Below, one piece after another: positions 3,484 to 15,745 of a stretch of DNA of 64,000 bases; positions within the stretch are counted from its first letter, which is position 1, and each line of letters starts with the position of its first letter. The translations under genes and the position numbers were made by a program. Under the pieces are notes generated by a model. That model saw nothing but the letters and a program-made list of their open reading frames with translations. It was not told where the DNA came from and made no database searches. The stretch is from Kribbella caucasensis (GTDB lineage Bacteria; Actinomycetota; Actinomycetes; Propionibacteriales; Kribbellaceae): assembly GCF_004361855.1 (NCBI RefSeq), contig NZ_SNWQ01000016.1, positions 186,001-250,000 on the forward strand. The letters are read 5' to 3'.

Positions 3484-3512
3484 CAGGGTCACCGCCTGGA
3501 TAGGGTGGCGGA

Positions 3513-3971
3513 GTGGTGAGCGAGGGCGCGGCTGGGGTGCGGGAGTGGTTGGCTCGGGTCGCGTGGCCGTTGAGCAGTCTCCGGGAGCGGTTCGGGACGT
3601 CGTACTACGCGCTCGCGCTGCTCTGCGGATCGGGTGAGTTCCGGGCTCGGCGGTTGCGGCCGGGGCCGTGGCCGGGTCCGATGGACGGTCCGGTGGTGAG
3701 CAATCGCCTGGATCGGGGTGGATTCAACTCGCTCGAAGGTCAGCTGGCGGCCGCGAATCCGGGTGACCATCTGCTCGATCTCCGGTCGGCCTCGGAGGCG
3801 CCGGATGCGGTGCAGAGATGGCTCGACGAACCGCAGATGTTCCGCAGCTTCGGCGCATACGTCCAGCGGTGGACGTACAAGTGCCAATTCGCCCCGACGA
3901 ACCTGACCAAGGAGTACGACGGCCTCGCCTACGTCGCCATCTCGACGCCGTCAGTACCCTCGGACGCTTAG
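3513..3971 (+). CDS. Hypothetical protein
   Basis: A 152-aa soluble protein starting at GTG 3513 (GTG GTG AGC). No domain is recognised. It is fairly rich in Arg, Gly, Trp and aromatic residues, with WLARVAWPLSSLRERFG near the N-terminus and YVQRWTYKCQF near the C-terminus, and no signal peptide or membrane segment. It lies 29 bp behind the TetR gene on the same strand, so co-transcription is possible. Its TAG at 3969-3971 directly abuts the stop of the convergent DHFR-family gene. Codon use looks normal for the window. Confidence 0.6.
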   Translation: MVSEGAAGVREWLARVAWPLSSLRERFGTSYYALALLCGSGEFRARRLRPGPWPGPMDGPVVSNRLDRGGFNSLEGQLAAANPGDHLLDLRSASEAPDAVQRWLDEPQMFRSFGAYVQRWTYKCQFAPTNLTKEYDGLAYVAISTPSVPSDA

Positions 3972-4532
3972 TCAGGAGCGCTTCGGCTGGTAGTGCAGGG
4001 CGGTGACGCCGCATTCGAAGCCACGGGCCTCGACCAGCTGGACCCGCTGGTAGGCGCCCGGGCCGAAGACCGGCATCCCGGCGCCGATCGCGGTCGGGTT
4101 GACGAGCAGGTACAGGTCGTCGATCAGGCCGGCCGCGATCAGGCTCGCCACCAGCGTGCCGCCGCCGTAGACGATCAGGTCGCCGCCCGGCTGGGACTTC
4201 AGCTTGGTGATCGTCTCGGTGAGGTCGCCGCCGGCCACGACCGCGTTCTCCCAGGGCGACTCGGTCAGGCTGTTGGAGATGACCACCTTGGGGGTGTTGT
4301 TCATCCAGTCGATCGACGCCTCGTCCTCGTGCTCGGGACGCGACGCCCAGGCCGGGATGAAGCCCTCGGCGAGCTTGCGGCCGAGCACGATGGTGTCCAC
4401 CCCTTCCATCAGCGCCTCGATGTAGTCGCTCATGTCTTTCGTCCACTCGAACGTCAACCAGTCCATCTCGCTGTTCGGGCCGGCCATGTAGCCGTCGACA
4501 CTGGTCTGGACCTGGAGCTTGAGCTTGCGCAT
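3972..4532 (-). CDS. Dihydrofolate reductase family protein (RibD C-terminal type)
   Basis: A 186-aa single-domain protein of the RibD_C/DHFR-like fold. It shows the N-terminal strand and loop (QVQTSVDGYMAGPNSEMDW), the LGRK segment about residue 50, KVVISNSL, and the glycine-rich nucleotide-binding turn GGDLIVYGGGTLVASLIAAGLIDD with its family acidic end. Members use NAD(P)H on unknown substrates. They resemble riboflavin-pathway reductases but are not the essential folate enzyme. An imperfect 30-bp dyad lies 22-51 bp upstream, and the unknown gene 4633-5073 lies 100 bp further upstream on the same strand. Confidence 0.85.
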   Translation of the reverse strand: MRKLKLQVQTSVDGYMAGPNSEMDWLTFEWTKDMSDYIEALMEGVDTIVLGRKLAEGFIPAWASRPEHEDEASIDWMNNTPKVVISNSLTESPWENAVVAGGDLTETITKLKSQPGGDLIVYGGGTLVASLIAAGLIDDLYLLVNPTAIGAGMPVFGPGAYQRVQLVEARGFECGVTALHYQPKRS

Positions 4533-4553
4533 GATCGTGATTCCCTCTCGTGA

Positions 4554-4583
4554 TTTCGGAACGTGCTGACAGCATGTCCGAAA
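4554..4583. promoter_or_regulatory. Hyphenated dyad between two same-strand genes
   Basis: TTTCGGA and TCCGAAA flank an inner TGCTG-A-CAGCA palindrome; one extra base on the left arm makes the dyad imperfect. It could be an operator for the DHFR-family gene (22 bp downstream on the minus strand) or a transcription terminator for the gene ending at 4633. No U-tract is evident, so the two cannot be told apart here. Confidence 0.45.
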
Positions 4584-4632
4584 CCACTTACGGAATCTTT
4601 ACGGCCTGCCGAGGTCCCGGCGGAATGGTCGA

Positions 4633-5073
4633 TCAGGCGACGACGGCGAGGGTGCGGGCCGCGGGCGCGGTTGCCGGTGCTGCTGTCGGCGCGGGGAGGG
4701 TGGTGAGGAGGTCGAAGAAGTGGGGAGCCGCGTCGATCAGGCGGAGGAGGCCGGCTTCGTGGGCGGTCCAGCCGAACAGGAGTTCGCCGTCGAGGACGCG
4801 TTCGGCCAGCGGTTCGGCGTACGCGCTCAGGGTGGAGCGGGCCGGGCCGGTGCTCGGATGGTGGTCGCCGCAGCCGCACTCGGCGTTGATCACGATCGAG
4901 GTGAGGGCGGTGTGGGCGTACTGCCGCAGCCGGATCGTGGTGCCGCGGGCGGTGAAGCGCGCGATGGTTGCGTCAGGCAACTGAACGAGCAGCTCGACCG
5001 GGACGGCGTGGGAGCCGGGCAGCAGGCGCAGACCGCGGGACGCGAGCAGGTCGGCGAAGGCGTTGAGGTTCAT
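4633..5073 (-). CDS. Hypothetical protein downstream of poly-Cys leader
   Basis: About 146 aa from ATG 5073 (MNLNAFADLLASRGL). A longer in-frame start at 5130 exists but would run into the leader hairpin region. No known family is recognised. Visible features are an amphipathic N-terminus, a central C-G-C-G-D-H-H cluster that could bind metal, and a C-terminus rich in Ala, Pro and Thr. The Cys-rich cluster and the upstream Cys6 leader (5158-5196) with hairpin suggest expression tied to cysteine or sulfur status. That link is inference from context; the biochemical role is unknown. Confidence 0.6.
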   Translation of the reverse strand: MNLNAFADLLASRGLRLLPGSHAVPVELLVQLPDATIARFTARGTTIRLRQYAHTALTSIVINAECGCGDHHPSTGPARSTLSAYAEPLAERVLDGELLFGWTAHEAGLLRLIDAAPHFFDLLTTLPAPTAAPATAPAARTLAVVA

Positions 5074-5135
5074 CGCTGGAGTTCCAGAATCCTGTGGTTG
5101 CTGGTGTCGGCGGGCGGGCCGGATGGGCATGGCCT

Positions 5136-5157
5136 CGTGCGCCGGTGACGGCGCGCG
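5136..5157 (-). terminator. Attenuator-like hairpin directly after leader peptide
   Basis: In the minus-strand transcript CGCGCGCCG-TCAC-CGGCGCACG forms a 9-bp stem with one A-C mismatch and a 4-nt loop. It begins with the first base after the TGA of the poly-Cys leader, so a ribosome at the leader stop would cover its 5' arm, whereas one stalled at the Cys codons would leave it in a different state. No strong U-run follows. Confidence 0.5.
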
Positions 5158-5196
5158 TCAGCGACAACAACAGCAACAACACAGCGTGAACTGCAT
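5158..5196 (-). CDS. Poly-cysteine leader peptide MQFTLCCCCCCR
   Basis: A 12-codon ORF starting at ATG 5196: Met-Gln-Phe-Thr-Leu, six consecutive Cys codons, Arg, stop. Poly-Cys leaderless short ORFs are described in mycobacteria as cysteine-responsive attenuators of downstream operons. Here a good promoter (TTGGCA-N17-CATCAT, 5232-5204) puts the predicted start of transcription at or next to the A of the ATG, which suits a leaderless mRNA. A hairpin starts at the stop codon, and the next gene begins 84 bp downstream. The peptide is probably a cis-acting sensor of charged Cys-tRNA rather than a functional product. Translation itself is not shown by the sequence. Confidence 0.65.
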   Translation of the reverse strand: MQFTLCCCCCCR

Positions 5197-5203
5197 GCGA
5201 AAG

Positions 5204-5232
5204 ATGATGGCAGACAGTCGGCTCACTGCCAA
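5204..5232 (-). promoter_or_regulatory. Promoter for poly-Cys leader
   Basis: On the minus strand TTGGCA (5232-5227), a 17-bp spacer, then CATCAT (5209-5204), with the leader ATG seven bases further on. The spacing fits a primary sigma factor promoter giving a leaderless transcript. Confidence 0.55.
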
Positions 5233-5385
5233 ATACTGACTGCCATCTGAGACAGCGGTCCATGATCCGGCTACCGCTGCGTTCGCTACGGGGACCTGGG
5301 TGCCGACGGATGAGGACACCGAGCTCGACGGATCGAAGCTCACCGAGCCCGGGAGCCGGGACAGGACAAACGGCACGCCGACGAC

Positions 5386-6156
5386 TCATCGCGGTGTCGG
5401 CATTGTGGACGGATCGAGCGCCGGGTCGGTACGGAGAATCGCCTTCTCGAGCTGACGCAGCTCTCTTCCGGTATCGATTCCGAATTCGCTGATGATCCTT
5501 CTTCGAGCCAGCTGGTACGCGCGCAGGGCATCGGGTGTACGACCTGCTCGGTACAGGGCCAGCATGAGCGTGGCGGTCAGGCGTTGCCGGAACGGATTCT
5601 CGGCGACGAGCTCGGTCAGCTCACTGATGAGCTCGTGGTGCCGACCGATCCGCAGCTCCACCTCGAGGCACTCCTCTATTGCCGCCAGCCGGGCCTCCTC
5701 CAAGCCGCGACACAGCTGATCCGCCATCTCCGGTGTCGCGACGTCGGCCAGCGGAGCTCCGCGCCAGAGGTCGAGTGCTCGACGCAGCAGTGCGGCCTTG
5801 TCGAGGTCCAGCGCCTCGGCACGCGCGCTGGCCACCAGAGCGCGGAAACGATGGATGTCGACGCACAGCGGGTCCGCCCGCAAGATGTACGTCGATCCGC
5901 GCGTGATCAGCTCCACGCCATCGGCTCGTGCCCCAGTCAGGACGGCGCGTAAAGCGGAAATGCGAACGTGAATCGCGTGCTCCGCTGTCCGCGGCGGCGA
6001 GTCCGGCCAGGTGAGATCGACCAGGCGGCTGACCGGGGTGTATTTGTTGACGTTCAACGCAAGAATGCCCAAAGCGAGGCGTTGCTTGCGTGGACCGAGG
6101 TCGAGCTGCCGGTCCCCCACCCAGAATTCCACCGCGCCCAGTAACCGAATCTCCAC
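5386..6156 (-). CDS. SARP/AfsR-type regulator with BTAD domain
   Basis: A 256-aa protein from GTG 6156, preceded by a strong GGGGAGGGGA. Residues 1-95 form an OmpR-like winged helix (MEIRLLGAVEFWVGDRQLDL, then RISALRAVL). Residues about 100-245 form the BTAD helical domain (FRALVASARAEALDLD, FRQRLTATLMLALYRAGRTPDALRAYQ). It is a small SARP with no NB-ARC or TPR extension. SARPs typically activate exporter or secondary-metabolite genes through heptameric repeats spaced 11 bp apart, and exactly such a pair lies at 6316-6335 between this gene and the divergent RND module. Control of that module is a reasonable inference. Confidence 0.88.
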   Translation of the reverse strand: MEIRLLGAVEFWVGDRQLDLGPRKQRLALGILALNVNKYTPVSRLVDLTWPDSPPRTAEHAIHVRISALRAVLTGARADGVELITRGSTYILRADPLCVDIHRFRALVASARAEALDLDKAALLRRALDLWRGAPLADVATPEMADQLCRGLEEARLAAIEECLEVELRIGRHHELISELTELVAENPFRQRLTATLMLALYRAGRTPDALRAYQLARRRIISEFGIDTGRELRQLEKAILRTDPALDPSTMPTPR

Positions 6157-6315
6157 GGCGAGTCCCCTCCCCCTAGGCGCGCACCCCTCGCGCCCCGCCG
6201 TCCACCGCCCCCAAGGAAACTGCCCAGTTCCTCGGTGTCCGGCCGAATTTTCAGTCTACGCGTCACCTCCGGCGGTGTGACTCCGCCGTGAGTTAGTTAT
6301 GAGCGCTGGGTGCGA

Positions 6316-6335
6316 TCCTCAGGAAATCCTCAGGA
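6316..6335. promoter_or_regulatory. Tandem 11-bp repeat upstream of RND module 1
   Basis: TCCTCAGGA occurs at 6316-6324 and again at 6327-6335 with an 11-bp period. Read on the minus strand it is CTGAGGA-N4-CTGAGGA. It lies between the SARP gene and RND A1, 30 bp before the A1 start. Related pairs occur at 37631 and 44878. It is a candidate binding site for the SARP or for the OmpR-type response regulator at 35.5 kb. Each unit is also a near-palindrome, so orientation is ambiguous. Confidence 0.55.
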
Positions 6336-6365
6336 TCGCCAGCCACCGGAGGGGGGTCGTTGACG

Positions 6366-9300
6366 ATGACGCGGTGGGTTGTTTCCTCGAGCCTGAGATT
6401 TCAACGCCTCGTGCTCGCTGCCGCTGTGTTCCTGCTGGCGGGTGGGATCCTCCAGTTGCGCACGACCAGCGTAGACGCCTTGCCCGAATTCGGAACGACT
6501 CGTGTCGAGGTTCAGACCGAGTCCCTCGGCCTGTCCGCTGAAGAAGTCGAACAGCTGATCACCAACCCGCTGGAGCAGGAGTTCTTCAACGGCCTGCCGT
6601 GGCTCGATCGTCTGCGTTCCAGCTCGATCCCGGGCTTGTCGTCGATCGAGATGGAGTTCGAGCCCGGCACCGACGTCATGCTCGCCAGGCAAGTCGTTCA
6701 GGAGCGCCTCACCATGGTCCCGGCGCTTCCCGCGGCCTCCTCGAAACCGCCGTTCGTCATCCAGCCCGTCTCCTCGACGAGCCGGTTGCTGTTGGTCGGG
6801 CTCTCATCGAAGGACCTCTCACCGCTCGAGATCGGCGTCCTCGCTCGCTGGACGATCCAGCCTCGGCTGCTGAGCGTCCCGGGGGTGGCCAACGTCGCCA
6901 TCTGGGGTCACCGGGATCGCCAGTTGCAGGTCCAGGTGGACCCAAGTCGGCTGAAGCAGCACGGCGTGACCCTGGACCAAGTCATCAGCACGACCGGAAA
7001 CGCGCTGTGGGTGTCACCGCTGACCTTCGTCGAGGCCTCGACACCGGGGACCGGAGGGTTCCTGGACAGCGCCAACCAGCGGATCGACATCCAGCACACC
7101 CAGCCCATCAAGACCGCGCAGGATCTGGCCAAGGTCGCCGTGGAGGGCGCGGCGAAGACCGGCCTGCGTCTCGGTGACGTCGCCAGCGTGGTGGAAGACC
7201 ACCAGCCGCTGATCGGCGACTCCGTCGTCGACGACCAGCCCAACACGATCCTCGTCGTCGAGCGGTTCCCCGGCACCAGCGTCGGCGACGTGACCCGGGC
7301 GGTCGACGAGGCCCTGCGGGACATGGCACCCGGCCTCGCCGGGCTGCAGACCGACACCACGATCTTCCGTCCGGCGGACTTCGTCGAGGCAGCCCTGGCC
7401 AACCTGATGACCGCGCTCCTCATCGGGGCGCTCCTGCTCCTGCTGGTGCTCGCCGCTTTCCTGTTCGACTGGCGTTCCGCGCTGATCAGCATCGTTGCAC
7501 TGGGCCTGTCGCTCACTGTCGCTCTCGGCGTCCTCTCGATGCTCGGCGGCCCGCTCAACCTCATCGCCTTGTCGGGGATGATGATCGCGCTTGCCGTCGT
7601 GGTCCACGACGCGGTCACCGACGTGGACGACATCCGGCGCCGCCTGGCGGAGCGACGTGAGGGGGTCTCTCGGGCGACCACGGTCATTGCGGCCGTCGCG
7701 GAGGTGCGCGGCACCATCCTCGTGGCGACCGTGGTCATCGCGGCGACCGTGGTGCCGGTCGTGTTGATCGGCGGGACCAGCGGCGCGCTCCTCAAACCGG
7801 TCGGACTCGGCTACGCACTGGCGATCCTGGCTTCCATGCTGGTCGCGCTGACCGTCGTACCCGCCTTGGCGGCGGCCCTCCTGCCCGACTCGTCAGTCGG
7901 GCGCGAGTCGCCGCTTGCTCGCTGGTTGCGGCGTGGGTACGCCGCGCTGCTCAGGCGGATCGTCAGCCGGCCGACGGTGTCGTACGTAGCCGCCGCGCTG
8001 ATCCTGGTGGCGGGTTTCGCGCCGCTGCCGCTGCTCGGCGGCCAGCAGTTGGCACCGCCGTTGAAGGACCGGAACCTGCTGATTCGCTGGGAGGGAATCC
8101 CGGGCGCGTCCCTGCCCGAGATGAACCGGATCACCGCCGCGGCCAGCGCGGAGCTGCGGTCCGTGCCTGGAGTACGCAACGTCGGCGCCCTGATGGGCCG
8201 CGCGATCACCTCCGACCAGGTATCGGGCGTGGGGTCCGGGGAGCTCTGGGTCACCCTCGATCCGGCCGCGGACTACGACGCCACCGTAGCCGGCGTCCGG
8301 GACGTGGTGAACGGCTATCCAGGGCTCGTTCGCGACGTGCTGACCTATCCGGACCAGCGGCTGGACGAGGTCGGCGCGGGCACGGCGGAACCGGTCGTCG
8401 TCCGGGTGTACGGCAACGACTTCGATGTCCTCGAAGCCAAGGCCGACGAGGTCGTCCAGGCGATCTCGACGATCGACGGCATCGCCGCCCCACGGGTGCA
8501 GACACCGGACAAGGAGCCGACCGTCGAGATCGAGGTCTCGATCGACAAGGCCGCCGCCCACGGGATCAAGCCCGGCGAGGTCCGTCGTACCGCGGCCACT
8601 CTGATGTCCGGCATCACCGCGGGCAACCTCTTCGAGGAGCAGAAGGTCTTCGACGTCGTGGTCCTGGCGACGCCCGAGGGACGCCAGAACCTGGACAGCC
8701 TTCGCAATGTCCTGATCGACACGCCGTCCGGCAACCAGGTCCGCGTTGGCGATGTGGCGGAGGTGCGCATCCGGCCGAACCAGACCAACATCAGGCACGA
8801 CGCCGTCTCCCGTTACATCGACGTCGTCGCCGAAGTACGAGGACGCTCCCTCGGCGCGGTGACGAGTGATGTCGAGAGCCGTGTCCAGCAGATCACCTTC
8901 CCCAAGGAGCATCACCTCGAGGTGCTCGGCGATGCGGCGCAGCGACAGAGCTCGCACCTGCGGACCTGGCTGCACATCATCGCCGCCGCGATGGCGATCT
9001 TCTTCCTGCTGCAGGCTGGATTGCGCAGTTGGCGCCTCGCTTTGCTGCTCTTCCTGCTGCTGCCCGTCGCGCTGTCGGGCGGGGTGCTGGCAGCGGCACT
9101 GCGCAAGGACACCATCTCAGTGCTGTCGTTGCTGGCGCTGCTCGGCGTGTTCGCCTTCGCAGTACGTGCCGGCCTCCTGCTGGTCAGGCACGTCCAGCAC
9201 CTGGAGGAGGAAGGTCAGGCGCTCGGTCCGGCCGTGGTTCTGCGGGCGGCCGAAGAACGGTTCGGCGCGACGGTGATGACCGCCGTCGGTGTTGCGCTGG

Positions 9301-9506
9301 CCCTGGTTCCGGTCGTGGCCGCCGGCAGCGTCACCGGCCTCGAAGTGATTCAGCCGATGGCTGTGATCATCATGGGCGGTTTGCTGAGCACGACGCTCCT
9401 CGTCCTGTTCGTGCTGCCGTCCCTATACCTGCGTTTCGCTTCCGGCCGTTCCTCGAGCGGCGATCCGGCCGACGACCGGGCGGTCTCGATGGAGGAGACG
9501 TCATGA
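6366..9506 (+). CDS. RND efflux permease A1 (CusA/CzcA-like, divergent proton relay)
   Basis: A 1046-aa permease of normal RND length. Start ATG 6366 is chosen because GGAGGGGGG lies at the right distance and all four paralogues here begin M-(T/M)-R-W/L...SSLRF. It has an N-terminal helix, a porter domain ([61 protein letters not shown]), TM2-6, a second porter half, and TM8-12. The ARQVVQERL and VPGVANV segments resemble the heavy-metal (HME) branch. In TM4 the usual Asp-Asp is His414-Asp415, and the following E-N is D-D. TM10 has AVRAG where the B subunits have ARNG. It overlaps the mini-adaptor gene by 4 bp. Probably a cytoplasmic-membrane exporter subunit working with B1; the substrate is unknown. 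Confidence 0.88.
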   Translation: MTRWVVSSSLRFQRLVLAAAVFLLAGGILQLRTTSVDALPEFGTTRVEVQTESLGLSAEEVEQLITNPLEQEFFNGLPWLDRLRSSSIPGLSSIEMEFEPGTDVMLARQVVQERLTMVPALPAASSKPPFVIQPVSSTSRLLLVGLSSKDLSPLEIGVLARWTIQPRLLSVPGVANVAIWGHRDRQLQVQVDPSRLKQHGVTLDQVISTTGNALWVSPLTFVEASTPGTGGFLDSANQRIDIQHTQPIKTAQDLAKVAVEGAAKTGLRLGDVASVVEDHQPLIGDSVVDDQPNTILVVERFPGTSVGDVTRAVDEALRDMAPGLAGLQTDTTIFRPADFVEAALANLMTALLIGALLLLLVLAAFLFDWRSALISIVALGLSLTVALGVLSMLGGPLNLIALSGMMIALAVVVHDAVTDVDDIRRRLAERREGVSRATTVIAAVAEVRGTILVATVVIAATVVPVVLIGGTSGALLKPVGLGYALAILASMLVALTVVPALAAALLPDSSVGRESPLARWLRRGYAALLRRIVSRPTVSYVAAALILVAGFAPLPLLGGQQLAPPLKDRNLLIRWEGIPGASLPEMNRITAAASAELRSVPGVRNVGALMGRAITSDQVSGVGSGELWVTLDPAADYDATVAGVRDVVNGYPGLVRDVLTYPDQRLDEVGAGTAEPVVVRVYGNDFDVLEAKADEVVQAISTIDGIAAPRVQTPDKEPTVEIEVSIDKAAAHGIKPGEVRRTAATLMSGITAGNLFEEQKVFDVVVLATPEGRQNLDSLRNVLIDTPSGNQVRVGDVAEVRIRPNQTNIRHDAVSRYIDVVAEVRGRSLGAVTSDVESRVQQITFPKEHHLEVLGDAAQRQSSHLRTWLHIIAAAMAIFFLLQAGLRSWRLALLLFLLLPVALSGGVLAAALRKDTISVLSLLALLGVFAFAVRAGLLLVRHVQHLEEEGQALGPAVVLRAAEERFGATVMTAVGVALALVPVVAAGSVTGLEVIQPMAVIIMGGLLSTTLLVLFVLPSLYLRFASGRSSSGDPADDRAVSMEETS

Positions 9507-9961
9507 TGCCCAAGACACAGGCACACAATGCTCTGACCGCGGTGATCGCCGCCGCCGTCCTGGTGCTGCCAGGTTGTACGTCGAGCGGCGCGGCTCTTGA
9601 TCCGGAGATCCCTGCGACGGTCGAGGAGATCTCGGGCGCGAAGGTCAAGCGCGTGACACTGTCCCAGAAGGCGAACGAGCGGCTCGGCATCAAGACCGCC
9701 ACGCTCACTCAGCAGACGGTCGCCGGCAAGCCGAGGAAGGTCGTCCCGGCCTCGGCAGTGCTCTACGACGCGAATGGCGCCACCTGGGTCTACACGACCG
9801 GTCAAACCAACAGCTATGTCCGGGCGAGCATCACCATCGAGGACATCACACCCGATTTCGCGGTGCTGTCCGCCGGGCCTGCCGTCGGCACAACCGTGGT
9901 CAGCGTGGGCGCGGCCATGTTGTACGGAACCGAACTCGGCGTCGGCAGCAAAGCCAAGTAG
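9503..9961 (+). CDS. Mini periplasmic-adaptor-like lipoprotein 1
   Basis: A 152-aa protein whose ATG overlaps the A1 stop (ATGA). The signal peptide ends in a lipobox VLPGC (Cys25). The mature part has an N-terminal strand typical of RND adaptors (RVTLSQKANERLGIKTATL) and then goes straight to the adaptor C-terminal segment (VVPASAVLYDANGATWVYT, then VLSAGPAVGTTVVSVGA and LYGTELG). The usual beta-barrel, lipoyl and alpha-hairpin parts of HlyD/CusB-family proteins are missing, and full adaptors are roughly 350-450 aa. It is presumably anchored outside the membrane to cap or couple the permeases; no outer-membrane channel is expected in this organism. Its paralogue is at 41066. The role is inference. 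Confidence 0.8.
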   Translation: MMPKTQAHNALTAVIAAAVLVLPGCTSSGAALDPEIPATVEEISGAKVKRVTLSQKANERLGIKTATLTQQTVAGKPRKVVPASAVLYDANGATWVYTTGQTNSYVRASITIEDITPDFAVLSAGPAVGTTVVSVGAAMLYGTELGVGSKAK

Positions 9962-9987
9962 GACTCGTTGGGGGCCTGAGAGCGATG

Positions 9988-12900
9988 ATGCGGTGGACGG
10001 TTCGTTCGAGCCTGAGGTTCCGGCACCTCGTCGTCGTCGCGGCGTCGCTGATGATGTTCTTCGGCGTCCTGCAGGTCCGCGCGATGCCGCTCGACGTCTT
10101 CCCCGAGTTCGCTCCGCCGAAGGTCGAGGTACAGACCCTCTGCCTCGGTATGTCCGCGACCGACGTCGAGTCTTTGATCACCGTGCCCTTGGAGCAAGCG
10201 CTCAACGGCGTCGAGGGCTTGGACGTGATGCGATCCCGATCCGTCTCCCAGCTCTCCAGCATTCAGATGATCTTCAAGCCCGGGACCGATCTCATGCGAG
10301 CCCGGCTGGCGGTGCAGGAACGGATCCAGCTCGTCAGTCCGACCCTGCCGCGCTGGGCGAACAGCCCGTTCCTCATCCAGCCGCTGTCCTCGACCAGCCG
10401 AGTGATGAAGATCGGGTTATCCACCGCGGACAGGTCCGAGCAGTCGCTGATCGAGATGTCGCTGGCCGCCTACTGGACGATCCGGCCACGGCTGATGCGG
10501 GTGCCCGGTGTGGCGAACGTGGCCATCTGGGGCGATCGATGGTCTGTCCTCCAGGTGCAGGCCGACCCCGATCGCCTGCACGCCAACGGCGTGTCGCTGA
10601 ACAACGTCATGAATGCGACCGCGGACGCTGTGGACGTCGGCATGCTCAAGTTCCGCAGCGGTCACGAGATCGGCACCGGGGGCTTCATCGACACGCCCAA
10701 CCAGCGGCTGTCGATCAAGAACATCATGCCGCTGCTGACTCCCGAAGAGCTGGCCAAGATGCCCCTGGACGTGCCCAAGGGCAGCGAGCCACTGGCTATC
10801 GGGGATGTCGCCGACGTCGTCAGAGGCCACCAGCCCATGCTCAACGGCGAGGCGGTCATCGATGACGGGCTCGGCCTCATGCTCATCGTCGAGAAGCTGC
10901 CGTGGGGCAACACCCTCGAGGTGACCCGAGGGGTCGAGGTGGCACTCGCCGAGATGGCGCCCGGCATGACCGGTGTCAAGGTCGACACCGAGATCTTCCG
11001 GCCGGCGACCTTCATCGAGGAGTCGATCGAGAACCTCGGCCAGGCGATGGTCCTCGGCTTCATCCTCGTCGCCATGATCCTGCTGCTGTTCCTGTTCGAG
11101 TGGCGCGTCGCGCTGATCAGCATCGTGACGATCCCGCTGTCCCTGATCGCTGCCGCGATGGTGCTCAACGCGATGGGGGCGACGGTCAACACGATGATCC
11201 TGGCCGGGATGGTGATCGCCCTCGGGGTGCTCGTCGATGACGCCATCATCGATATCGAGAACATCGTGCGGCGCATCCGGCAGCACCGTAAGGAGGGCAG
11301 TACCAGGTCGATGGCGGCGATCGTCCTCGAAGCCTCGCTCGAGGTGCGCGGGCCGATCGTGCACGCGACGCTGATCATCCTGGTGTCCACCGCGCCCGTG
11401 TTCCTGCTCACCGGCCTGACGGGGGCGTTCTTCCGGCCGCTCGTCCTCGCCTACGGGCTGGCGATCCTGGCCTCCCTGCTGGTGGCGCTCACGGTCACCC
11501 CCGCGCTCGCCCTGATGCTGTTGTCGAAGACGGCGATCGAACGGCGCGAGGCACCTGTGGTGCGCTGGCTGCAGCGCGGCTACGTCGGGATGCTGGAGCG
11601 GATCGTCAAGCGGCCGCGCCGGGCCTATGCCACCGTCGGCGTCATGCTGCTGGTCGGACTCATCACGCTGCCGTTCCTGGGGCAGTCCCTGTTCCCGGCG
11701 TTCAAGGAGCGGGACTTCCTGATGCACTGGGTCGCCCTGCCCGGCACGTCGCATCCCGAGATGATCCGCATCACCACTCAGGCCAGCAACGAACTGCGCT
11801 CCATCCCCGGAGTGCGGAACTTCGGCGCGCACATCGGCCAGGGCACCCTGGCGGACGAGCCCGTCGGCATGAACTTCGCCGAGAACTGGATCAGCATCGA
11901 CCCCGACGCCGACTACGACAAGACGGTCGCCGCCGTCCAGCGGGTCGTCGACGGATACCCCGGACTACAGCGCGACGTTCAGACGTACCTGAAGGAGCGC
12001 ACCAAGGAGGTGCTCACCGGGACGAGCGAGGCCATCGTCGTGCGCGTCTACGGTGACGACTTCGGCGTCCTCCGCGCGAAGGCCCAGGAGGTGCTGAAGA
12101 TCATCTCGGACGTCGACCACACGGTCGAGGAGAAGGTGGACCTGCAGCTCGACATTCCGCAGATGGAGGTGAACGTCAACCTCGCTGTCGCCTCGAGGTA
12201 CGGCATCAAGCCGGGCGACGTCCGCCGGGCCGCCGCGGCGTTCATCGCCAGCGAGGAGGCGGGTGACATCTGGCGGGACGGCAAGAACCACGAGGTGCAC
12301 GTCTGGAGCACGCCGAAGAACCGCGTCAGCCCGCACGCCGTCCGCAACCTGCTGCTCGACGCGCCGGACGGCCGCCGGGTCTCGCTGGGCGAGCTGGCCG
12401 ACGTGCGCATCGTGCCGACGCCCAACCTCGTGCTCCGGGAGAGCGGCACCCGGAAGATCGACATCGCCACGAATGTCGAGGGAAGTGACCTGGGAACAGT
12501 CGCACGCGAGATCGAGCGCCGCCTCGCAGAGGTCGAGTTCCCCAGCGGCTACCACGCAGAAATCCTCGGCGAGTTCCAGGAGGCGCAGGCGGCACAGAAT
12601 CGCCTGCTGCTGTTCGCCGGCGCGGCGGTAATCGGGATGCTGCTGATCCTGCAGCAGGCCTTCGGGAGCCTTCGCCTGGCAATGCTCGTCATGCTGACCC
12701 TGCCGATGGCCTTGGTCGGCGGAGTTCTGGCGGCACTCGCGACCGGTGGCATCCTCTATCTCGGTTCGCTCATCGGCTTCTTCACGGTGCTGGGCATCGC
12801 CGCCCGCAACGGGATCCTGATGGTCAACCACTGCCAGCATCTGGAGAGACACGAGGGTGAGGAATTCGGCCCCGCGCTCGTCCTGCGCGGCGCGAAGGAA

Positions 12901-13125
12901 CGCCTCTCGCCGATTCTGATGACTTCGTTGGCCACCGGACTGGCGCTAGTTCCGTTGGTGGTCGCCGGCACTATTCCCGGCCACGAGATCGAGCACCCGA
13001 TGGCCGTGGTGATCCTGGGCGGACTGGTCACGTCCACCTTGCTCAACCTGTTCGTGGTGCCTTCGCTCTATCTGCGGTTCGGCCGAGGCAGGTCTGCCGC
13101 GCCGCCTGCGACCGCCTCGAGCTGA
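9988..13125 (+). CDS. RND efflux permease B1 (CusA/CzcA-like, canonical TM4 Asp pair)
   Basis: A 1045-aa permease. Two ATGs (9985, 9988) are possible, and the second matches its paralogues. It has the full RND layout: porter strands ([53 protein letters not shown]), twelve predicted helices and a second porter repeat starting [18 protein letters not shown]4 reads [20 protein letters not shown] with Asp417-Asp418, and TM10 has IAARNGILM, so the proton-relay residues are of the conventional type, unlike A1. The gene follows the mini-adaptor by 23 bp and ends module 1. Its closest relative in the window is B2 at 41538, by motif identity. Confidence 0.9.
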
Positions 13126-13171
13126 CGAGCGGGCGGGGGATCGGCGTCCGGCACTGGAATGATGTTGGCTT

Positions 13172-14134
13172 GTGGACGAGTTGGTCATCGCGAGTAACCC
13201 GGATCCGGACTCGCGGCTGCCGTATGTGATCCGGGTTCCGTACGGCAACGGGCTGGTGTTCCGCGCGGGTGACACCTGGCCGCGGACGAAGGCGGTGTAC
13301 TGCTATCCGCTGGCCGAGTGGCCGGCGGGCGCCGAGGTGCTCGAACGCGTGCCCGTGAAATCCTGCGAGCGTCGCGGCGCGGCTGTCGACCTGGTGCTGG
13401 ACCGGGCCAGGGAGAACCGGTCGCAGCTCGTGTTCACCACTGCCCGCGGCCGCGACGCAGTCTTCTGGCAGGGGCCACGGACCCGTAAGCAGGCTCGGCC
13501 AGGGGTGCGGACCCCGACCGCCCGCGCCGCCGGCATCAGCGAGCTCGAGATCATCGTCGACTCCCACGAGCGGTACGGCTACCGGTTCGCCGGCCAACAG
13601 GCCAACGTCGTACGGCGGGCACTGAAAGCTGGTGACTACGGCATCGAACACGGCGGCCGGCTGATCGCCTCGGTCGAGCGCAAGTCTCTGGCTGACCTGG
13701 TCAGCAGCCTGACATCGGGGAGGCTGAAGTACGCACTCGGCGAGCTCGCCGCGCTGCCACGGGCCGCGATCGTGGTGGAGGACCGCTACTCGCAGGTGTT
13801 CAAGCTGGAACGGGTTCGGCCGGCCGTCGTCGCTGACGGTCTCGCCGAGCTGCAGATTCACTTCCCGGGCGTGCCGATCGTGTTTTGCGAGACCCGTCAG
13901 CTCGCCGAGGAATGGACCTACCGGTACCTCGCCGCGGCGTACGCCCGCGAGCTCGACCACGCCGATACCGCCGACCGGACCACTGCCGCCGAGCCTGCCG
14001 CGAGCCTCGCCGGCATCCGCGCGTGGGCCCGCGGCCGCGGTCTGGCCGTCGCCGACCGGGGCCGGATCGCCGCCGACGTCGTGGCCGCCTACCACGAGGC
14101 CCACCCGGCCCCAGCCGCCAACCTCGACAGCTGA
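13172..14134 (+). CDS. XPF/ERCC4-type nuclease fused to Lsr2-like DNA-binding domain
   Basis: A 320-aa protein from GTG 13172. Residues about 1-115 are an unassigned N-terminal domain. About 125-255 form an ERCC4 nuclease domain with IIVDSHERYGYRF and the active-site signature E169-R-K-S-L-A-D175, followed by LVSSLTSGRLKYALGEL. About 278-310 (IRAWARGRGLAVADRGRIAA) match the C-terminal DNA-binding domain of Lsr2, the AT-preferring actinobacterial nucleoid protein. The fusion suggests a structure-specific nuclease targeted by an Lsr2-type minor-groove reader, in repair or in restriction of AT-rich foreign DNA. The target is inference. It stands alone, 46 bp behind RND B1 and convergent with sepH. 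Confidence 0.82.
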   Translation: MDELVIASNPDPDSRLPYVIRVPYGNGLVFRAGDTWPRTKAVYCYPLAEWPAGAEVLERVPVKSCERRGAAVDLVLDRARENRSQLVFTTARGRDAVFWQGPRTRKQARPGVRTPTARAAGISELEIIVDSHERYGYRFAGQQANVVRRALKAGDYGIEHGGRLIASVERKSLADLVSSLTSGRLKYALGELAALPRAAIVVEDRYSQVFKLERVRPAVVADGLAELQIHFPGVPIVFCETRQLAEEWTYRYLAAAYARELDHADTADRTTAAEPAASLAGIRAWARGRGLAVADRGRIAADVVAAYHEAHPAPAANLDS

Positions 14135-14239
14135 GGCCCCCAACTTTGTACGGCAGGCCTGGCCGCGGCGATCATCGCCGAGTCGAACACCCGGACCACC
14201 AGAGCCTGCGCGCTGGTGACGACGGGCGTGGCCGCTGGG

Positions 14240-15745
14240 TCAGTCGGCCTTCTTGCCGAACATGATCTCGTCCCAGCTGGGGACGCTGGCGCGCTTGGAG
14301 CCGCGGCGGGCCGGCTTCTTCTTCGGCTCGGCCTCGGTGGCCGGGGCTTCAGGGGCCGGCGTTTCGGCAGCTGGGTTGTCGACGACCGCGGCTGCTACGG
14401 GTGCGGGGGCGTCGACGGGAAGCTGTGCGGCAGGCTCGGCGGGCGCGTCGGTGCGGCGGTCGGCGTCGCGGGGGTCGGCGGGGCGCGGAGTGGGGGGTTG
14501 CGGGTCCGGGCGGCGGGGGTCGGCCGACTTTGGGGGCGGCGTTTTGAGGTCAGGACGTGGGTCGACGGGCGGTGTGCCTTGGCGGGGTTCGGCTGGGCTC
14601 CGCTGCTCGGGTGTGCGGGCGGCGGGGGAGATGCGGTGCTCGGTGAACGGGTTGTCCGGGGCGGCGGCGCGCTCTTCCGGCGGCACGATCGACGCTGCTT
14701 CGGCCGGCAGTTGGGTCGGGCGCTCGACCGCCCGTACTGCGGGACGCACGGGCGACGGGGGCTCGATCGGAACGTCGATCAGCGTGGGCTCTTCGTCCGG
14801 ACTCGGCACCGAATGCACCCGCCGCGGCCCCCGATCATCATCCCGTCCGAAGTCGCGTCCACGGGCGGTTTCGCGGTCGGCGTCACGGCTCGGAACTTCT
14901 TCCCGGCCCGCGCGCTCGCGGCCGAAGGACTCGCGGTCGTCCCGACCGGCTGCACTTTCGCGGCCGTAGGTCTCGCGGCTCTCCCGGTTGGTCGCGGGTT
15001 CGCGGTTGAAGGTTTCTCGGGGGGTTTGGCGGGCTCTCGTGAGGTTGAGGGTGTCTTCGAAGCCGGCTTCGTAGCTGTCGGCGCCGTGGTCGGGGGCCAG
15101 GGCCAGGTCGATGTCGGCGACCGCGGTGAGGCGGCGCTCGGGCTGCTGCGGCGGGAGCACCTGGGCCTGTTCGCCGACGAGCCAGCGAGCCTCGTCGTCA
15201 TCCGGTACCGCATACCGCCCCGGGGCGTCGTACGCGAACATCGCGATCTTCTCGTCGTCCTCGGCGACGTGGTACGAGACGCGGACCGCCCATCGGCCGT
15301 CCTCGCGCCGCCAGGCGTCCCAGTCGGCCGCGGCCGGGTCGACGCCACGGATCCGGAGCCGCTCGGTCACCCAGGCGCCGAGGTTGCGGGTCGGGGCGTC
15401 GCCGCCACCACGACGGCGGACGGAGGCGCGCTGGGCCAGAGAGGCGACGTGATCGCGCTCGGCGAGAACCGGGCCGGCGAACGCCATCACGCGTTCCATC
15501 GGCATCTGGGCGACGGCAGCGACCGCCTCGGGACTTTCGCCGGCGCGGATACGAGCCTGGATGTCTCGTGGGCGCAGCGCGCTCTCCATTTGAATCTCCA
15601 GCTGGCCGAGTCGGGCACGGTCGCCGCGCAGGGCCGCACGCAACCGGTCGTCGACCGGGATGGCGAACTCCTCACCCGTCTCCGCCATCGCCAGGATGAG
15701 CTGCTTGCCATCCTGGCTCAGGCCAACGAGCCTCGCCTCGCGCAT
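14240..15745 (-). CDS. sepH: Septation protein SepH (DUF3071)
   Basis: A 501-aa protein. Residues 1-200 are the conserved SepH/DUF3071 domain (MREARLVGLSQDGKQLILAM, MESALRPRDIQARIRAGESPEAVA with an internal helix-turn-helix, LGAWVTERLRIRGVD, W-x-ARREDGRW-like). The remainder is a long charged and Pro-rich low-complexity tail with repeated R-E-S/T-F/Y-x-R-E units at about 245-300, ending PSWDEIMFGKKAD. SepH is a Z-ring-stabilising FtsZ partner in actinobacteria. The short conserved C-terminal box (PSWDEIMFG) is typical of the family. Convergent with the ERCC4-Lsr2 gene. Confidence 0.92.
   Translation of the reverse strand: MREARLVGLSQDGKQLILAMAETGEEFAIPVDDRLRAALRGDRARLGQLEIQMESALRPRDIQARIRAGESPEAVAAVAQMPMERVMAFAGPVLAERDHVASLAQRASVRRRGGGDAPTRNLGAWVTERLRIRGVDPAAADWDAWRREDGRWAVRVSYHVAEDDEKIAMFAYDAPGRYAVPDDDEARWLVGEQAQVLPPQQPERRLTAVADIDLALAPDHGADSYEAGFEDTLNLTRARQTPRETFNREPATNRESRETYGRESAAGRDDRESFGRERAGREEVPSRDADRETARGRDFGRDDDRGPRRVHSVPSPDEEPTLIDVPIEPPSPVRPAVRAVERPTQLPAEAASIVPPEERAAAPDNPFTEHRISPAARTPEQRSPAEPRQGTPPVDPRPDLKTPPPKSADPRRPDPQPPTPRPADPRDADRRTDAPAEPAAQLPVDAPAPVAAAVVDNPAAETPAPEAPATEAEPKKKPARRGSKRASVPSWDEIMFGKKAD

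Follow-up and report, generated by a model that had tools for sequence, protein, structure and literature searches.

A short open reading frame (ORF) with six consecutive cysteine codons, located ahead of a gene for an uncharacterised 146-amino-acid (aa) protein in Kribbella caucasensis, is probably a cysteine-sensing translational attenuator that controls this gene and resembles the poly-Cys attenuators of mycobacteria. Under the mechanism that we propose, transcription would start on the leader ATG or no more than two bases from it, and ribosomes would initiate on the 5' AUG without a Shine-Dalgarno (SD) sequence, as the promoter spacing suggests for both steps. When Cys-tRNA is ample, ribosomes would traverse the six Cys codons and leave, and the freed Cys tract would pair with ACACCAGCA and with the SD region of the downstream gene; this pairing is found in silico and has comparative support, and from it we infer that translation of that gene is blocked. 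When Cys-tRNA is scarce, ribosomes would stall on the Cys codons, occupy that strand, and expose the SD, and the 146-aa protein would be made.

Leader, promoter and conservation

All features of the locus described here are on the minus strand of the window, i.e. the whole stretch of 64,000 nucleotides that was analysed. A -35-like hexamer, TTGGCA (5232-5227), identified in a promoter scan and represented by a TTTG core in nearly all 38 Kribbella, is followed after 17 nt by CATCAT (5209-5204), which is part of the extended -10 element CTGCCATCAT (5204..5213; genus consensus CTGYCATGAT(C)). After a further 7 nt comes the ATG (5196-5194) of the leader ORF, MQFTLCCCCCCR (5158..5196), which has 12 sense codons and ends with the stop codon TGA (5160-5158). 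Its six Cys codons, TGT TGT TGC TGT TGT TGT (5164..5181), are the putative sensor codons, and the gene that the leader putatively regulates (4633..5073) begins with an ATG at 5073, 84 nt past the leader stop. This layout of promoter, poly-Cys ORF, and 84-nt gap had been described in the sequence-only reading of the window, and its coordinates proved correct.

The leader promoter is the sole sigma-70-like match in positions 4500-5450 (9 of 12 bases, with TG before the -10), against 0.1 expected from shuffled sequences. The -10 element stands 7 nt before the leader ATG in 37 of the 38 Kribbella, with A and T at -12/-11 in all 38 and A/T at -9/-8 in 37, and CTGYCATGATCNTCSGC abuts the ATG in nearly all of them. 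An SD-like sequence is absent from the 18 nt upstream of all 38 leaders. Because of this conserved spacing and the missing SD, we regard the Cys leader as a candidate for leaderless translation, with which both observations fit. Alignment of the Kribbella loci also reveals an element upstream of the promoter, GTCTCAGATGGCAG (5240..5253; genus form GTCYCAGATnGC), and a wider consensus, GGACnGTcGTCYCAGATnGCGGACnGTG, that is possibly a direct repeat and a candidate regulator site.

The leader is far beyond chance. An ATG followed by four codons and then five Cys codons is found a single time in the 9.46-Mb genome (the reversed-pattern control gives 0), and among about 93 inspected runs of at least four Cys codons, drawn from 100 of the 104 places listed for that genome, the window leader is the only start-led short ORF outside a longer coding frame. 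Other poly-Cys leaders were sought in the same genome and rejected: the remaining CCCC runs inspected sit in longer frames or lack a short ORF.

Among the close relatives sampled, conservation of the Cys run, to which the sequence-only reading had tied its proposal, is complete. All 38 Kribbella genomes have an orthologue of the downstream gene (those of the other 37 share 66-83% identity with the window protein), and each is preceded at the same position by a leader with 4-7 Cys codons that ends 77-100 nt before it. A profile search of 294 genomes retrieved 10 homologues from two other families of the order Propionibacteriales, 34-43% identical to the window protein, and all 10 have a Cys leader whose end lies 46-73 nt upstream of the matched start of the gene (MHHLCCRCR, MSHLCCRCR, MRFDVLCRCCCR, MSFRVLCRCCCC, MSPVGPHPLCCCCRR, MSCCCCR, and MRSGVLHRCCCCC). 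As a control, we counted, on both strands, ATG-initiated ORFs of at most 16 codons with at least three Cys codons and a CC pair: ten 10-kb outgroup loci (200 kb of strand) contain exactly 10, which are the ten leaders, and of the 23 counted in 21 Kribbella loci, each at most 16 kb long (665 kb of strand), 21 are the leader. A second copy of the gene, broken into two frames and with the motif ECGCGDPP, is present in one Kribbella genome (L136, G002:C1:4103000-4114000); it lies some 10 kb from the intact copy and has no poly-Cys leader nearby.

More distant homologues, 25-35% identical, are found in Frankia and Protofrankia. Their loci (L083-L087) have a longer Cys-rich upstream ORF (uORF) that starts with GTG 6-7 nt after CATAAT and ends 265-421 nt upstream of the homologue; its C-termini (e.g. 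...GCCCPRPRVR and ...ACPCCPSPRVH) have the general form CP(S/R)PR(V/A)(H/R) or similar. Pairing of this uORF with the SD region was not found, and it perhaps represents the same sensing with a different output. A phylum-wide scan of 396 genomes gave no further homologues at E <= 1e-5, and a plasmid search gave no match.

Pairing of the Cys codons with the ribosome-binding region

In RNA folding, the partner of the Cys codon tract UGUUGCUGUUGU is ACACCAGCA(A), located immediately 5' of the SD region CACAGGA, and the CUGUG at the start of the Cys run can pair with the CACAG of the SD region. The two target segments together form CGACACCAGCAACCACAGGA (5090..5109), which is near-invariant in Kribbella and has related sequence in two other families. 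This pairing encloses two small inner hairpins, one of which, CGCGCGCC-GUCA-CCGGCGCACG (5136..5157), is conserved and directly follows the leader stop. The sequence-only reading had noted this stem-loop, and its presence at 5157-5136 stands; it lacks a U run and is an inner hairpin of a larger fold. According to the model, the anti-SD strand is the Cys codon tract itself and not the adjacent hairpin.

The window leader, its relatives, and the 38-sequence Kribbella alignment agree on the fold, and the Cys tract is found to pair with the SD region both in Kribbella and at most outgroup loci. Pairs were counted from the Kribbella alignment, the alignment of outgroup leaders being too poor to include: 99.2% of cells are paired, against 28-52% for slid controls, and compensatory changes occur at three pairs, against 0.1 expected from shuffles, with covariation within the genus slight as most pairs are invariant. 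In one outgroup family, the 5' part of the leader pairs with the SD itself, with two-sided changes (GACGUCCU/AGGACGUC versus GGCGUCCU/AGGACGCC). Compared with dinucleotide shuffles, the leader-SD duplex has a z of -2.5 in the window, and in one outgroup family seven of the eight loci reach about -2.7 to -4.7; in Kribbella it is often only weakly better than the shuffles, which retain the UGU repeats (median z about -1), and outgroup locus L130 has no good leader-SD pairing. The Cys codons of the leaders are UGU in 164 of 195 cases, versus 21 of 104 in the genes of the window (Fisher p = 5e-28), a preference that is consistent with selection on the leader codons as RNA. Rfam covariance models gave no match at E <= 1 in positions 3500-7000.

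The consequences of a stalled ribosome were modelled as footprints of 30 nt. In Kribbella, opening the SD region is predicted to cost 12.6 kcal/mol in free RNA versus about 4.7 kcal/mol when a footprint lies on a Cys codon; footprints of equal size centred at least 6 nt past the stop leave the cost at 10-13 kcal/mol, and those on the hairpins at about 12 kcal/mol. The modelled effect concerns the wider ribosome-binding region; when the four SD bases are taken by themselves, their probability of being unpaired shows hardly any change in Kribbella. For a ribosome at the stop codon, the model gives 6.0 kcal/mol, which is closer to the stalled than to the free value, so the off state would need the ribosome to depart. 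When the leaders are base-shuffled, the opening cost of free RNA falls in 28 of 30 cases, and it drops by about 3 kcal/mol when the Cys codons are given a UGC bias like that of the genome.

The U-run terminator that would be expected of a classical transcription attenuator is absent between leader and gene, and a terminator reading of the fold was discarded for lack of a U run at the hairpin. Since modelled footprints on the Cys codons lower the opening cost and no such terminator is present, translational control is favoured over the transcriptional alternative in which stalling on the Cys codons prevents Rho-dependent (or other) termination between leader and gene, with RNA pairing being secondary. 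Rho-dependent control was proposed for the cys leaders of Mycobacterium because terminators were not found there (PMC1262725), a situation that recurs here, and the uORF of the Frankia relatives, distant from its gene and without pairing to the SD region, would suit it. We nevertheless consider it unlikely for the Propionibacteriales loci, in which the spacer is short (46-100 nt) and highly structured and the conserved pairing extends to the SD.

Two further explanations carry much less probability. The poly-Cys peptide could itself be the functional output, such as a micropeptide that binds metal or persulfide and acts in trans, as the strict conservation of Cys run and reading frame might suggest; however, the number of Cys residues varies from 3 to 7, the remaining residues vary freely, the preferred UGU codons pair with the downstream SD region, and the ORF always adjoins the same gene, making this very improbable. 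Slightly more improbable still is an untranslated, protein- or ligand-binding RNA element whose UGU repeats would read as Cys codons only by coincidence. Nucleotide conservation and structure are indeed high downstream of the stop, but in Kribbella the length from the -10 element to the conserved TGACGCGCGCC at the stop, and with it the ATG-to-stop spacing, varies in multiples of three only, whereas the spacer past the stop changes length freely and not in threes; moreover, the Cys runs persist in other families despite divergence of the remaining RNA sequence.

The downstream protein and its neighbourhood

No Pfam or NCBIfam family, no related PDB sequence, and, for a confident AlphaFold model (mean pLDDT 86), no PDB fold match was found for the 146-aa protein. 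These results bear out the earlier remark that the gene is not a recognised sulfur gene. The protein carries the motifs ECGCGDHH and GWxxHEAGLL. The former is the Cys/His cluster on which a place in the cysteine regulon had been suggested: it is present and kept in Kribbella, and kept as C-x-C in two other families, but as evidence of function it is weak, being weakened in or lost from the Frankia homologues.

A rhodanese sulfurtransferase is encoded near the gene in all 10 non-Kribbella Propionibacteriales loci, directly convergent in most. Given the cysteine-sensing leader and this nearby sulfurtransferase, the natural reading is that the downstream protein is probably part of a response to cysteine or sulfur limitation. 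More tentatively, and with somewhat more doubt than confidence, the gene may found a new cysteine/sulfur homeostasis family of Propionibacteriales and Frankia, perhaps as a sulfur-transfer or persulfide partner of the nearby rhodanese, under a self-masking leader whose sensor codons double as the anti-SD strand.

The gene sepH (DUF3071) is found near the gene throughout the order. In the window strain (5386-15745), about 10 kb containing two large RND-type transporter genes and a SARP regulator separates the gene from sepH (14690-15745), which in other Kribbella lies just 1-4 kb away; the extra distance suggests an insertion or rearrangement. The SARP regulator was considered as a partner and rejected, the conserved neighbour being sepH instead.

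Comparison with known cysteine leaders

In the same K. caucasensis genome, an operon encoding sulfite reductase, cysH, cysD, and cysN has a leader of its own, MTIHLVGRIHVDLGRMRSAICCPSTF (L145:2401-2481, G000:C8), which is conserved in the 30 Kribbella loci examined and preceded by a conserved palindrome, TGAGATcg.aTCTCA. Both leaders contain Cys codons, and the one of the sulfite reductase operon stands upstream of a sulfur operon. It differs from the window leader in its conserved RxHVDLxR-type sequence ...HLVGRIHVDLGRMRSAICCPSxF, with two adjacent Cys, and no sequence or RNA similarity between the two was seen; the motif HVDLxRMRSAIC is absent from the window leader. Kribbella thus has two kinds of Cys leader side by side. 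A regulator site, GTCTCAGATnGC, common to the leader promoter and the sulfite reductase operon was entertained and rejected, the genus-wide site of the latter being a different palindrome (TGAGAT..ATCTCA). The two intergenic matches to GTCYCAGATnGCRG in the genome are the leader and sulfite reductase promoters, a likeness that we take to be chance.

In Mycobacterium, poly-Cys leaderless short ORFs, a set of about six, reportedly act as cysteine attenuators (Canestrari et al. 2020, Mol Microbiol 114:93, doi 10.1111/mmi.14498). The Kribbella leader is similar in being a short, putatively leaderless ORF whose consecutive Cys codons precede the gene under control, in having no terminator, and in the proposed unmasking of a ribosome-binding site by ribosomes stalled on these codons. 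In contrast to the mycobacterial leaders, it occurs in a different order, putatively controls an uncharacterised family rather than a known sulfur operon, and is the only one found in its genome among the runs inspected. Later papers cite the mycobacterial leaders as cysteine attenuators (PMC9031893, PMC9094748, PMC13236596), and one of them gives the M. smegmatis cases as translation attenuation (PMC13236596). In the Kribbella form, the Cys codons would be the masking strand, a feature that the mycobacterial cases may share.

Cys leader peptides have also been predicted for Mycobacterium, Propionibacterium acnes (cys), and Bifidobacterium longum (cbs) (Seliverstov et al. 2005; PMC1262725). 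Like the Kribbella leader, they have a run of Cys codons near the stop and no obvious terminator; they differ in preceding known cysteine genes, and conserved terminator-like hairpins were not seen in them, whereas the Kribbella leader has a conserved structure of which the Cys codons are part. A further parallel is the LEU element of actinobacterial leuA, whose regulatory codons are reported to form pairs with the SD box of the gene that follows, although there the codons are for leucine, a pseudoknot is involved, and regulation was not abolished by codon mutations (PMC1262725).

A conserved, codon-specific leader is among the few sequence signals that name the metabolite controlling an unknown gene, and here it points to a directly testable class of function for an orphan protein family left unplaced by profile and fold searches. 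The locus is best read as showing that poly-Cys leader control reaches beyond the mycobacteria, in a form in which the Cys codons are predicted to mask the ribosome-binding site.
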